Shown: positions 4,400-64,000 of the stretch, one piece after another
Numbering within the stretch: position 1 is the stretch's first letter
Layout: every line of letters starts with the position of its first letter
Assembly: GCA_021822605.1 (NCBI GenBank)
Contig: JAKAQL010000008.1
Coordinates: forward strand, 1 to 64,000
Direction: 5' to 3'
Source of the DNA: Actinomycetes bacterium
GTDB lineage: Bacteria > Actinomycetota > Acidimicrobiia > Acidimicrobiales > Acidimicrobiaceae
Length of the DNA: 64,000 nucleotides
Position numbers and translations under genes: made by a program
Notes under the pieces: model-generated
Told to the model about the DNA's origin: nothing
Databases searched by the model: none
What the model saw: the letters and a program-made list of their open reading frames with translations, nothing else

Positions 4400-5538
4400 C
4401 GCTATCGGCGATTCCAAGTATCGATGATCTTGCACTTGCTCCTGGGCGGAGGGTCCTGTTACGTGCTGACTTGAATGTACCGCTGCGCACTGGTCCCAAC
4501 GGCACACAGATCGTCGCCGATGCGTTCCGCATCGATGCCGCACTTCCGACGATCGCGCGGCTACGAGCGTCTGGTGCTGAGGTGGTGGTCTGCTCACATC
4601 TCGGGAGGCCGAAGGGTTTTGACCCAAGGCTCACCATGGAGCCGATTCGTGCGATTATCGAAACACACTTTCCGGAGGTGGAGGTGCTCGAGAATTTGCG
4701 CTTCGACCCGAGAGAGGAGGCGAATGACCCCGTGTTTGCCGCCGAGCTTGCAGCTGGGTTCGATGCCTTTGTCAACGATGCGTTCGGAGTCTCTCATCGT
4801 CGTCACGCCTCGATCGTAGGCGTTCCTCCGTTGCTGCCATCTGCAGGTGGAATCACCCTGTTGGAGGAGGTGAAGCATCTCACCCGGTTGCTTGAGATGC
4901 CTGCGCGCCCGTATGTAGCTGTCCTTGGTGGGGCGAAGGTTTCTGACAAGCTCGGGCTACTCAATGCGCTTGTCCAGCAGGTGGATACGTTACTCGTGGG
5001 CGGTGGGATGTGTTTTACCTTCCTTGCCGCTGAGGGCATTGAGGTTGGTGATTCCTTGGTGGAGGAGCAGATGATCGATCAGTGCCAACACCTGCTTGCC
5101 ACTGGTAAGGTAGTGCTTCCGGTTGATGTGATGGGTCTCGCATCGAATGACAGCTTTGGACCGGATGGGGGTAATGGCGTGGCTCAGCGCTTCGGGCTGG
5201 GTGTCCCTCCCGGATACCGCGGGCTTGACATCGGCGCAGCTACCATCGAGCGATTTAGCGAGTTTCTGGTTGGGGCGCGTTCGATTCTCTGGAACGGACC
5301 CATGGGAGTCTTCGAAGATCCTCGATTTCGATTGGGCACAGATGGCGTCGCCGCGGCGATCGGTCGGTCGGATGCCTACAGCGTCGTCGGTGGTGGTGAC
5401 TCTGTCGCTGCATTGCATCAGGCAGGTCTGGCTGAGAACGTGTCGCATCTCTCCACCGGCGGTGGGGCTACCCTTGAGTATCTCGAGCACGGTGACTTGG
5501 TTGGATTAGCTGCCCTACGACATTCAAGGGAGCCCTAA
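4396..5538 (+). CDS. pgk: Phosphoglycerate kinase
   Basis: RRVLLRADLNVPL, GGAKVSDKLGLL, WNGPMGVFE, VGGGDSVAAL; GTG start at 4396 overlaps the gap stop. Confidence 0.96.
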   Translation: MTLSAIPSIDDLALAPGRRVLLRADLNVPLRTGPNGTQIVADAFRIDAALPTIARLRASGAEVVVCSHLGRPKGFDPRLTMEPIRAIIETHFPEVEVLENLRFDPREEANDPVFAAELAAGFDAFVNDAFGVSHRRHASIVGVPPLLPSAGGITLLEEVKHLTRLLEMPARPYVAVLGGAKVSDKLGLLNALVQQVDTLLVGGGMCFTFLAAEGIEVGDSLVEEQMIDQCQHLLATGKVVLPVDVMGLASNDSFGPDGGNGVAQRFGLGVPPGYRGLDIGAATIERFSEFLVGARSILWNGPMGVFEDPRFRLGTDGVAAAIGRSDAYSVVGGGDSVAALHQAGLAENVSHLSTGGGATLEYLEHGDLVGLAALRHSREP

Positions 5539-60755: not shown

Positions 60756-61616
60756 TTATGGCGCCAGGGCAACAGGTATCGCCGTCGAAGGCCTGGCGTC
60801 GATCATAAGGCCACTCTGATCGCCAAATCTGCGCTTGACCCAGCCGCTGACGACGACAGTGGTATCCTCGAGCAGCAAGGCACGCACCTCGCCTGCGAGA
60901 TCACCAGACGCTGCGGTTAATGGCAAGGGGGGTGTGGGAAGGTGAAGAAGGGCCTCGAGGGAGAGGGGTGAGTAACGCTGTACGAAAAGTGAGGCTGGTG
61001 GTCTCGCATGACGCGAGTCTGTTCTGGCGACAAGCTCCTGCCCAACGTAGCAGCCTTTCGTAAAACTCACTCCAGTGGCAACGAGGGTTGGCACTCCGGC
61101 AACAAGCAGATCTGGAGGGGCATCGGAGGGGAGATGGGTTGCGAGTCGCGCAAGGCGAAGATGTGCAAATGCCTCGTCAGAGGCACCGTCGTCACCCGCT
61201 GGAAGCGGTACCAATGCTGTATCCAGCGGCCAGAGCGCCGTTGCTTGACTGGTGAGGCTGGTGGCCCAGTGTAGGTCCTCGACGGTGATATCGGCCTTTA
61301 CTCGTATCCGAAATCGAGCAAGGCGCTCATGCAGCAGGTTGAGGTGTTCACGATACGTGATGAGTCGCAGGGTATCCTCATTGATTCGCTGTAGGCTGGC
61401 GATCGTGACCAGCTTTCCATCAGGCGTACAGACGGCGGCGATCAAGGGCGTTTTCTCGTCAAGATGATTGAGATCGTTGGTGAGCTGGCCCTGCAGAAAG
61501 CGAGAAGCATCGGGACCGTTCACCTGGAGCGAGGCCAATGGGAGGCATGTGACTCGCTCTGGTCGAGTCGCCGCTGCTCGTGGTGATTCTTGTTGTTCAG
61601 TGAATGGAGTGCTCAT
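60756..61616 (-). CDS. ygfZ: YgfZ/GcvT-like folate-binding protein
   Basis: RFLQGQLTNDLNHL, VSFTKGCYVGQELVARTDSR signature. Confidence 0.92.
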   Translation of the reverse strand: MSTPFTEQQESPRAAATRPERVTCLPLASLQVNGPDASRFLQGQLTNDLNHLDEKTPLIAAVCTPDGKLVTIASLQRINEDTLRLITYREHLNLLHERLARFRIRVKADITVEDLHWATSLTSQATALWPLDTALVPLPAGDDGASDEAFAHLRLARLATHLPSDAPPDLLVAGVPTLVATGVSFTKGCYVGQELVARTDSRHARPPASLFVQRYSPLSLEALLHLPTPPLPLTAASGDLAGEVRALLLEDTTVVVSGWVKRRFGDQSGLMIDARPSTAIPVALAP

Positions 61617-61795
61617 CTGTCTCTTGAGCCTATACCCTCATCCAGACGAATCCAGGACAGCAGCTCCAATTGTGTCTCGAGCTGCTCTAATAGAGTTATC
61701 GTGAGCAGGATTCTTGGCGTTGCAGACCCTAGCCATCAGTGCCCCCGATCGGTGATCCACTACACGCATACTGAGGGCGGGGAATGAGGAGTAGG

Positions 61796-62036
61796 ATGAA
61801 GGCATACCCAAGGGAACAGAAGGAACGTGTACTGAGAAGGCTCCTAGACTACGGGGCAGTGAGCGTACTCTCGACGGTGCAATCACGAAGCTTTCAAGGG
61901 CCGAAGGAATCCCGTGGACACGCTCTACACAGAGAACGCCTCACTGAAGCGAACCGGGGCTGTTGGTAAGGTCTCGGCCTCGGGTAGTGCCTCTGTGGCG
62001 CTCTCGTCAAAGGCAAAGTACGAGATGTTTCTTAGT
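61796..62036 (+). pseudogene. Decayed IS OrfA-like transposase remnant
   Basis: Pieces in three frames: KAYPREQKERVLRRLLDYG, TLDGAITKLSRAEGIP, VDTLYTENASLKRTGAVGKVSASGSASVALSSKAKYEMFL (OrfA-type HTH pattern). Confidence 0.55.
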
Positions 62037-62421
62037 CCCGAGGAGAATGTCAGCATGGGCCAAGGGCACGCTTGCCGAAGCCCTCGAATCTACAACACAA
62101 CAGCGCAAAGCGAGGCACGTCCTCGTGAATGCGGCCTACACATCGCAAATGGACTCGGCCACTCACTTACTGGAAGGTAAGTGCGTGGCGGATACGTTTT
62201 ACTGCACCAACGGGGATGTTCTAAAGGCTGACTTCAACGGTGCTCGGAACCTGCTCCATAGATACTCCGATCAAGAGATCACTCTCTACACCCCTCACAG
62301 GGAAGTTCGGCGTATCCTGCTAGCACGTTCCTCCGGCGCAACTGAGCGTCAAGAGGCACAGGTTGCACGAGACCAACACTCTTATCAACCGTGTGCGGAC
62401 AAGCCTCATGACTTTGAGTAA
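62037..62421 (+). pseudogene. C-terminal remnant of an IS605/IS200-type TnpB (OrfB) transposase, zinc-ribbon Cys-poor variant
   Basis: RRMSAWAKGTLAEALESTTQQRKARHVLVNAAYTSQMDSATHLLEGKCVADTFYCTNGDVLKADFNGARNLLHRYSDQEITLYTPHREVRRILLARSS. Confidence 0.75.
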
Positions 62422-62455
62422 TTATGCTTAGGTTTTTAGGAGCAGTGACACAGCA

Positions 62456-62941
62456 ATGATTACGCGGGTAGCAGTAGCCGTGGATGGGTCTCCCGCGTCT
62501 CTGGCGGCCGTGCAGGAAGCTTGCACGATGGTCGAGACCGGAGGCATGGTCTATATCATGGCCGTAAAGGATTATGCCGTATTTCAGCAAGAAGCGGTCG
62601 CGGAAGCGGACGTAGAGGCATCGGTGGCCGATATTGACGTATTTGTCAAGGATTGGGATAAGGCAGCGTCTCGCACGCACCATACGGTGATGACCCTACT
62701 ACAAGGGTGCGGGCACGAGTTCAAATGGATGACCATCAGTGCCAAGCCTGGCCAAGGAGGGGCTGCTCGGGTTTTCTACGAGCGCGCACTGAAGCACGAC
62801 GTGCAGGTGCTGCTCGTTGGGAGGCATCAAGGGATGGCTTGGGTGGAAGGGTTGCTGGGAAGTTTTCCATGGTGGCTGGTGGGGCATAGCACCTTGCCGG
62901 TTGTGGTGGTCCCCCCGCCCATAGGGCCTGCCGTAAGATAA
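62456..62941 (+). CDS. Universal stress protein (UspA) family, divergent, copy 1
   Basis: RVAVAVDGSPASLAAVQEA ... VQVLLVGRHQGMAWVEGLLGSFPWWLVGHSTLPVVVVPP. Confidence 0.85.
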   Translation: MITRVAVAVDGSPASLAAVQEACTMVETGGMVYIMAVKDYAVFQQEAVAEADVEASVADIDVFVKDWDKAASRTHHTVMTLLQGCGHEFKWMTISAKPGQGGAARVFYERALKHDVQVLLVGRHQGMAWVEGLLGSFPWWLVGHSTLPVVVVPPPIGPAVR

Positions 62942-62991
62942 TCGAGGATATCACAGTGACGAGAAAAAGGTCAGAAGAAGAGGGAGAGCGT

Positions 62992-63469
62992 GATGGTCAA
63001 TCGGTTGGCGGTGGCGGTAGATGGGTCTCCGGCCAGTTGGGCCGCCGTGCAGTATGCCGTCGATGCTGTGGATCAGGGAGGACTCCTACTGCTGATTGAT
63101 GTGCAAGACGTCAAGACTTTTTACAATGACTGTACTAGCGAGGCCGTTGCCGGGGATCTTTCCTGCGATGTGCGGTATTTTATGAAGGCCTGGGATAAAG
63201 CTGCTGAGCATGCCCAGCAAGAGGCTATGCAAATTGCCAGCATGCAGGGTGTCGAGGTAGAGTGGCGAATTGTGAAATTGCCTCCTAACCACGGTCGTTC
63301 CCCTCAAGCGTTTTACGAGGCCGCTATCCGTGAGCATGTGGATTTGCTGGTGACGGGCAAACACCACGGGCTCCAATTGCTCGAAGGACTTTTTGGGAGT
63401 TTTCCACGATGGCTGCTCCTGCATAGTCAAACGCCTGTCGCCGTCGTGCCGCCCTCCGCGGTACACTAG
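62992..63469 (+). CDS. Universal stress protein (UspA) family, divergent, copy 2
   Basis: VNRLAVAVDGSPASWAAVQYAVDA ... VDLLVTGKHHGLQLLEGLFGSFPRWLLLHSQTPVAVVPPS; paralogous to the preceding gene. Confidence 0.85.
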
Positions 63470-63524
63470 CGCACGAGGGAAGCGATGGAAATGGAGTCGT
63501 CTAAAGATATGGGGAGATGAAAGT

Positions 63525-64000
63525 ATGCAGCCACAGGCATGGGATGTCCTGACGATCGGCGGGGGGCCAGGAGCGACGCCCGGCGCTCAGTTCTTAGCGG
63601 CGCATGGCAAACGGGTTGCGATTATCGAGCAGGGTCTGGGGCTTGGGGGTACGTGTCTATTTGAAGGGTGCATCCCTTCGAAGATTTATTTGGAGACGGC
63701 TGGTCGCCTGCGGGCGATCCGGGAAGGCGCGCAATTTGGCATTGTCGGTGCGGACTATACGGGGCTTGATTTGGCGCGCTTGCGCGAGAGAAAAGCACGC
63801 ATCTTATCGCAGCGCGTCATTGGAGCCAGTAAATCCAGCGAGGCGCTGGGGATCACAGTTCTCCAGGGGGTCGCGGACATTATTGACTCGCGGCACGTGA
63901 GTTTTGCCGCAGCAGGACAAGACCCCGTGACTTTGGAGGCAGAAACCCTCATTATTTCTCCCGGGTCCGTTTCGCGAGAGCTCAACGTGCCAGGAGCCAA
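63525..64000 (+). CDS. Pyridine nucleotide-disulfide oxidoreductase (dihydrolipoamide dehydrogenase/mercuric reductase-like), 5' part
   Basis: Frame read by eye to window end: MQPQAWDVLTIGGGPGATPGAQFLAAHGKRVAIIEQGLGLGGTCLFEGCIPSKIYLETAGRL...; redox-active GGTCLFEGCIPSK. Not in the ORF track because it runs off the window. Confidence 0.9.
   Translation, partial: MQPQAWDVLTIGGGPGATPGAQFLAAHGKRVAIIEQGLGLGGTCLFEGCIPSKIYLETAGRLRAIREGAQFGIVGADYTGLDLARLRERKARILSQRVIGASKSSEALGITVLQGVADIIDSRHVSFAAAGQDPVTLEAETLIISPGSVSRELNVPGA

Follow-up and report, generated by a model that had tools for sequence, protein, structure and literature searches.

A five-gene islet beside ygfZ in an Acidimicrobiaceae genome, probably gained from a donor of the Sulfobacillus lineage, with later invasion by insertion sequences

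The DNA analysed here, referred to as the window, comprises bases 1-64000 of contig 67 in the genome of an actinomycete of the family Acidimicrobiaceae (GenBank assembly GCA_021822605.1); the contig itself continues to 66191, where it ends inside an fmdE gene. Towards the right end of the window the core block of the host stops at ygfZ. The order his-trpE-ygfZ recurs in its congeners, and in all six of them a ygfZ orthologue (56-69% amino acid identity) lies beside trpE. What follows is an islet of five genes with open frames, usp1, usp2, lpd, fmdE and tauE/safE, which reaches past the window and onto a second contig. The features are as follows, with coordinates on contig 67 unless contig 32 is named.

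60756..61616, minus strand: ygfZ/CAF17-like gene, the left host flank (NF007110 YgfZ, 9e-15, and TIGR03317, both below the family cut-off)
61617..62040, no strand: degraded non-coding stretch from ygfZ to the TnpB relic, no family match
62041..62445, plus strand: relic, 3' fragment of a TnpB (IS607-type) gene, recognised by DNA match, TNB domain and internal stop
62456..62941, plus strand: usp1, universal stress protein (PF00582, 4e-9)
62990..63469, plus strand: usp2, universal stress protein paralogue (PF00582, 2.4e-12)
63525..64943, plus strand, running past the window end at 64000: lpd-like pyridine nucleotide-disulfide oxidoreductase, 472 aa (PF07992 and PF02852)
64948..65899, minus strand: IS1595-type relic with inverted ends, 76-79% identical to congener copies
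after 65899 to 66191, no strand given: 5' part of fmdE, containing its HGHxC start
contig 32, 9494..10054, minus strand: fmdE (PF02663, 1.9e-20), 186 aa from an inner start, the full start being on contig 67
contig 32, 8742..9488, minus strand: tauE/safE (PF01925, 2.1e-35, residues 6-243 of 248)
contig 32, 8161..8604, minus strand: relic of an IS110 C-terminal part, lying before a GGDEF/EAL gene

An earlier note, made from the letters of the window, had described the stretch after ygfZ as an IS graveyard of frameshifted transposase remnants, and part of this description holds. The fragment at 62041-62445 matches the 3' end of an intact tnpB, located in a tnpA-tnpB pair on contig 50 of the same genome, with 92.6% identity over 417 bp. 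The open reading frame at 61963-62421 carries the TnpB TNB domain (PF07282, 2e-6; NF040570, 1.3e-7), and the relic copy contains an internal stop. The description is not borne out for the preceding stretch, 61617-62040, whose reading frames have no Pfam or NCBIfam match, which matches no other DNA of the genome, and in which no relic can be identified. An IS3-like orfA suspected in 61590-62180 was dropped when the Pfam and NCBIfam scan of that stretch came back empty. Within the window the graveyard consists of the TnpB relic, and two further relics, of IS1595 type and of IS110, lie just outside it. Another TnpB relic (locus L009, G000:C52, 1-3813) is split by an ISAzo13-type transposase (PF07592) and lies beside flavoprotein, DsrC-like and DsrE-like genes, of which those scored have host-like codon usage.

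The two usp genes are paralogues, as had been proposed: Pfam finds the Usp domain in both products, which are 42% identical to each other. USP1 carries the motif GRHQG-x8-GS of an atypical subfamily and USP2 the corresponding GKHHG-x8-GS. Compared with the ATP-binding motif of this family, G-2x-G-9x-G(S/T), the spacing here is G-3x-G-8x-GS, and the position of the second glycine is taken by Q or H. The subfamily pattern G-[RK]-H-[QH]-G-x8-GS is common to the USPs of the window and those of Sulfobacillus; one Sulfobacillus metagenome-assembled genome (MAG) has two such copies near phosphoketolase, acetate kinase and 2-oxoacid dehydrogenase genes.

The third gene, which the note had called Lpd- or mercuric-reductase-like, is full length and intact and lies closer to the first of these. 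Its best model is dihydrolipoyl dehydrogenase (TIGR01350) with 373.2 bits, short of the equivalog cut-off of 408.8, and the mercuric reductase reading was rejected at 266 against 373 bits. The FAD/NAD and dimerisation domains are present and the Lpd motifs complete (GGTCLFEGC, the CxxxxC site, and HPHPTLSE, the HP..E site), so that the product is predicted to be a dihydrolipoyl dehydrogenase-like disulfide oxidoreductase. Bit scores below the NCBIfam cut-offs, for this enzyme as for the CoA-disulfide reductases discussed below, mean that such models do not fix the substrates.

The full extent of the module was expected to lie beyond the window, and this was borne out by extension to the right, which passes from lpd through the IS1595-type relic, fmdE, tauE/safE and the IS110 relic to the GGDEF/EAL gene. 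The IS1595-type relic, a copy of which in a congener has the zinc-ribbon domain of IS1595 (PF12760), starts five bases past the lpd stop and sits between lpd and fmdE. The ends of contigs 67 and 32 overlap by 126 identical bases inside fmdE. The genome holds no second fmdE, the end of contig 32 being the only other piece, and both outer flanks are the expected neighbours; on these grounds the join is inferred rather than sequenced through. The first seven bases of the contig 32 end, CCGATCT, match what we take to be the end of an Illumina adapter, and this adapter-like tail may explain the contig break. FmdE finds the structure 2gvi (Ta1109) at 5.6e-21, and its alignment includes the C-terminal CxxC...CxxC with the four finger cysteines as well as the TGCT core motif, which places it by homology in the FmdE family with a predicted zinc finger as in Ta1109. 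The gene tauE/safE follows five bases after fmdE. An Rfam scan of both islet ends returned nothing relevant.

The relatives show what this site looks like when it is empty. In six of six congeners ygfZ directly adjoins a gene of about 1430 codons for a GGDEF/EAL protein, annotated as such (GAF/PAS/GGDEF/EAL) in one of them and recognised in the others by the same position, orientation and size. The orthologue in this genome lies on contig 32, is 64% identical over residues 316-1430 and is split into two frames. Measured through the overlap, the interval between ygfZ and the GGDEF/EAL gene is 6738 bp here versus 186 bp in one congener (L028). FmdE was found in none of 41 other genomes of the family. 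Elsewhere in the host phylum 49 genomes gave matches, the strongest with E 1e-13 and 28% identity; these are far weaker than in the order of Sulfobacillus, where FmdE is present in 16 of 42 genomes, mostly with identities of 54-83%.

It is in Sulfobacillus that the cluster itself is found. S. thermotolerans Kr1 (CP019454) has ArsR-OsmC-Bax1-I-Lpd-FmdE-TauE, with the order lpd-fmdE-tauE of the islet and amino acid identities of 63% (lpd), 83% (fmdE) and 77% (tauE). It contains ArsR, OsmC and Bax1-I and lacks usp genes, while in the islet the reverse is the case, and its lpd and fmdE are 46 bp apart with no IS between them, where the islet is split by the IS1595-type relic. The Sulfobacillus sp. 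MAG clean5091 (L020) reads ArsR-OsmC-USP1-Bax1-I-USP2-Lpd-FmdE and, like the islet, has both usp genes ahead of lpd-fmdE, at 56-83% amino acid identity; unlike the islet it has Bax1-I between the usp genes and a disrupted usp2 frame, and its contig ends at fmdE. Bax1-I, OsmC and ArsR are all missing from the islet. Both Sulfobacillus clusters adjoin lipA-lipB, and in L020 a selenocysteine tRNA (4845-4931, minus strand) lies between lipB and an IS607-type recombinase. The same Sulfobacillus MAG holds, at a further locus (L121, G456:C166, 2462-6188), a second Lpd (56%), a broken FmdE and a USP set.

The trees for the USP and Lpd proteins, which had been suggested as a check, agree with this picture for two of the three. 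The sister of USP1 is that of Sulfobacillus sp. L020 (56% identity, support 98/97), and Lpd falls into a clade made up entirely of Sulfobacillus sequences (100/100), with 70% identity to L020 and 63% to S. thermotolerans, whereas its relatives within the host genus are at most 35% identical. USP2 is 58% identical to the disrupted USP2 of L020 and has no resolved placement in its tree; a search of 59 relatives gave no match better than 3e-5 and a plasmid search none. Within Sulfobacillales, FmdE groups with L020 and S. thermotolerans (98/91); TauE groups with S. thermotolerans (100/99). The composition is unlike that of the host in codon usage: the codon scores of the five islet genes (-0.062 to +0.012) are below the host leave-one-out minimum of 0.026 (mean 0.087; 43 host genes), while the GC profile shows no deviation at the islet.

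Could the cluster instead be ancestral to the host lineage and lost by all sampled relatives? The sample is confined to six congeners and about 41 family members, which leaves this reading some room, but it would require many independent losses at one site, the trees nest the genes within Sulfobacillales, and the codon usage is not host-like. We regard it as scarcely credible. A chimeric assembly, in which host contigs were fused with Sulfobacillus DNA present in a mixed community, has a little more to recommend it, given a draft genome of 120 contigs, a Sulfobacillus-like cluster and an adapter-like tail where the contigs break inside fmdE. It is nonetheless very improbable: the genes on either outer side are those expected in the host at this one syntenic site, relics of host-type IS elements are found within the cluster and next to it, and the estimated contamination of the genome is 1.5%. 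Moreover, the proteins reach at most 83% amino acid identity to any Sulfobacillus genome compared, and the DNA from usp to lpd is only about 65% identical to L020 and to S. thermotolerans Kr1.

That a stress/redox module was horizontally acquired at the ygfZ junction, as the note had proposed, is thus strongly supported by sequence comparison, namely by the empty site, the absence of FmdE from the family, the Sulfobacillus trees, the same cluster in that lineage and the foreign codon usage. The nesting of the genes in Sulfobacillales together with their absence from the host family points to a direction from the Sulfobacillus lineage to the host. Host and donor likely belong to different phyla, and the host most likely lives in acid mine water.

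How the genes entered is a separate question, and here the idea of a decayed entry element is not supported. A TnpB/IS607-type element might have brought the cluster in, as a composite or with the genes as passengers, and decayed afterwards; the relic ends 11 bp before usp1, and an IS607-type recombinase lies upstream of the L020 cluster too. But the relic is about 92% like the intact host copy, which in turn is 67-87% like the copies in congeners, and the recombinases of host and Sulfobacillus are only 28% identical. There are no matching transposon ends on both sides: the TnpB relic is confined to the left, the IS110 relic lies on the right and the IS1595-type relic inside, so that three IS families flank or split the islet. 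A TnpB carrier is accordingly unlikely, though a shade less so than a chimera. Because the same IS families occur in congeners, the TnpB and IS1595-type relics look like genus-native invaders that came later.

The explanation we prefer, and consider quite probable for transfer and anatomy, is that of an islet of about 6.7 kb whose five intact genes were acquired from a Sulfobacillus-lineage donor and later invaded by IS elements. The set usp1-usp2-lpd-fmdE-tauE/safE would have landed between ygfZ and the GGDEF/EAL gene, and insertions would then have struck it in three places, leaving the TnpB relic at its left end, the IS1595-type relic in the gap between lpd and fmdE and the IS110 relic at its right end. 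As the IS1595-type relic splits lpd from fmdE and Bax1-I, OsmC and ArsR are missing, the islet may be only partly expressed.

What the genes do can be approached through their neighbourhoods. The constant core in other genomes is the pair fmdE-tauE, adjacent on one strand in 16 of the 19 loci looked at in extent, one of them in this genome, and divergent but near in two. The loci include Citrobacter plasmids, Sulfuricella pSCD, where ArsC and an arsenite methyltransferase lie near FmdE-TauE-OsmC, and Halorubrum p163. Two Sulfobacillales genomes (L113 and L115) combine the pair with ArsD, two ArsA, a second FmdE-family copy, OsmC, ArsB and a CoA-disulfide-reductase-like enzyme; L115, which adds ArsR and a DsrE-like gene, reads ArsR-ArsD-ArsA-ArsA-DsrE-FmdE-OsmC-ArsB-CoA-disulfide-reductase-like-FmdE-TauE. 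These ars operons share with the islet the fmdE-tauE pair and a pyridine nucleotide-disulfide oxidoreductase, and with the Sulfobacillus cluster OsmC; they differ from the islet in having ArsA, ArsB and ArsD and in the type of reductase, which is not Lpd-like. Several other Sulfobacillales pairs lie near sugar-transferase or other unrelated genes, and none of nine FmdE loci of the host phylum has a TauE gene beside it within about 1.5 kb. In two Sulfobacillales genomes, L115 (11682-12706, minus strand) and L111 (5130-6153, minus strand), a second and more divergent member of the FmdE family stands beside a DsrE-like gene.

TauE has been described as a putative sulfite/thiosulfate exporter in sulfide-detoxification operons of the BigR/CstR/FisR type (PMC5823870, PMC7315123). 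The islet resembles these in combining such a transporter with sulfur redox enzymes, but has no persulfide dioxygenase or rhodanese and retains no regulator, where some of them have one of the ArsR family; FmdE is not described in them. FmdE proteins of known structure are built on a core related to thioredoxin, some of them with a zinc finger, and no function has been assigned to them (PMC2954224). Among the papers searched, none had FmdE together with TauE, and the one match for FmdE and arsenic was unrelated.

Together, the recurrence of the pair, its ars-operon contexts, the exporter reports and the FmdE structures suggest, by analogy and with somewhat less than even confidence, a thiol/sulfur, possibly arsenic, stress module. 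The Lpd-like enzyme would transfer electrons from NAD(P)H to a substrate of dithiol or persulfide type, and FmdE, with its zinc and cysteines, would handle or sense sulfur or thiol-bound species; both would feed TauE/SafE, which would export a small sulfur oxyanion, e.g. sulfite or thiosulfate, while the USPs would be accessory stress proteins. Since fmdE-tauE lies inside or near ars genes in several relatives, a plausible trigger is arsenite, a compound that attacks dithiols.

The genes might alternatively serve lipoyl-dependent central metabolism by supplying an extra E3. The Lpd motifs fit this and the Sulfobacillus cluster adjoins a 2-oxoacid dehydrogenase E2 besides lipA and lipB, but E1, E2, lipA and lipB are not in the transferred set, and elsewhere the partners of fmdE-tauE are CoA-disulfide-reductase-like enzymes or ars genes, so that we think this rather unlikely. 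In the proteome of S. thermotolerans on arsenopyrite concentrate, 2-oxoacid dehydrogenase subunits were raised and no specific metal(loid) resistance system was regulated (PMC7409299). The raised subunits are probably the neighbours of the S. thermotolerans cluster, and the proteome neither proves nor excludes an arsenic/sulfur stress module.

Returning to the stress module, a more speculative extension, doubtful but possible, is that fmdE-tauE/safE is an undescribed two-gene unit of Sulfobacillales, Proteobacteria plasmids and a haloarchaeon. In this unit the FmdE zinc protein would prepare or sense sulfur or thiol-arsenic species, the TauE-type transporter would export them, and interchangeable disulfide reductases, Lpd-like or CoA-disulfide-reductase-like, would be the electron source; the islet would be a transferred version moving between acidophiles.

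The transfer itself is of an ordinary kind. Its value is that a complete, site-mapped transfer between probably two unrelated acidophile lineages can be seen in its several parts: the cluster of donor type, the unoccupied site and the IS decay that came later. The part worth following is the conserved fmdE-tauE pair: outside methanogens, FmdE proteins have known structures but no function assigned to them, and their constant pairing with an exporter makes that function testable.
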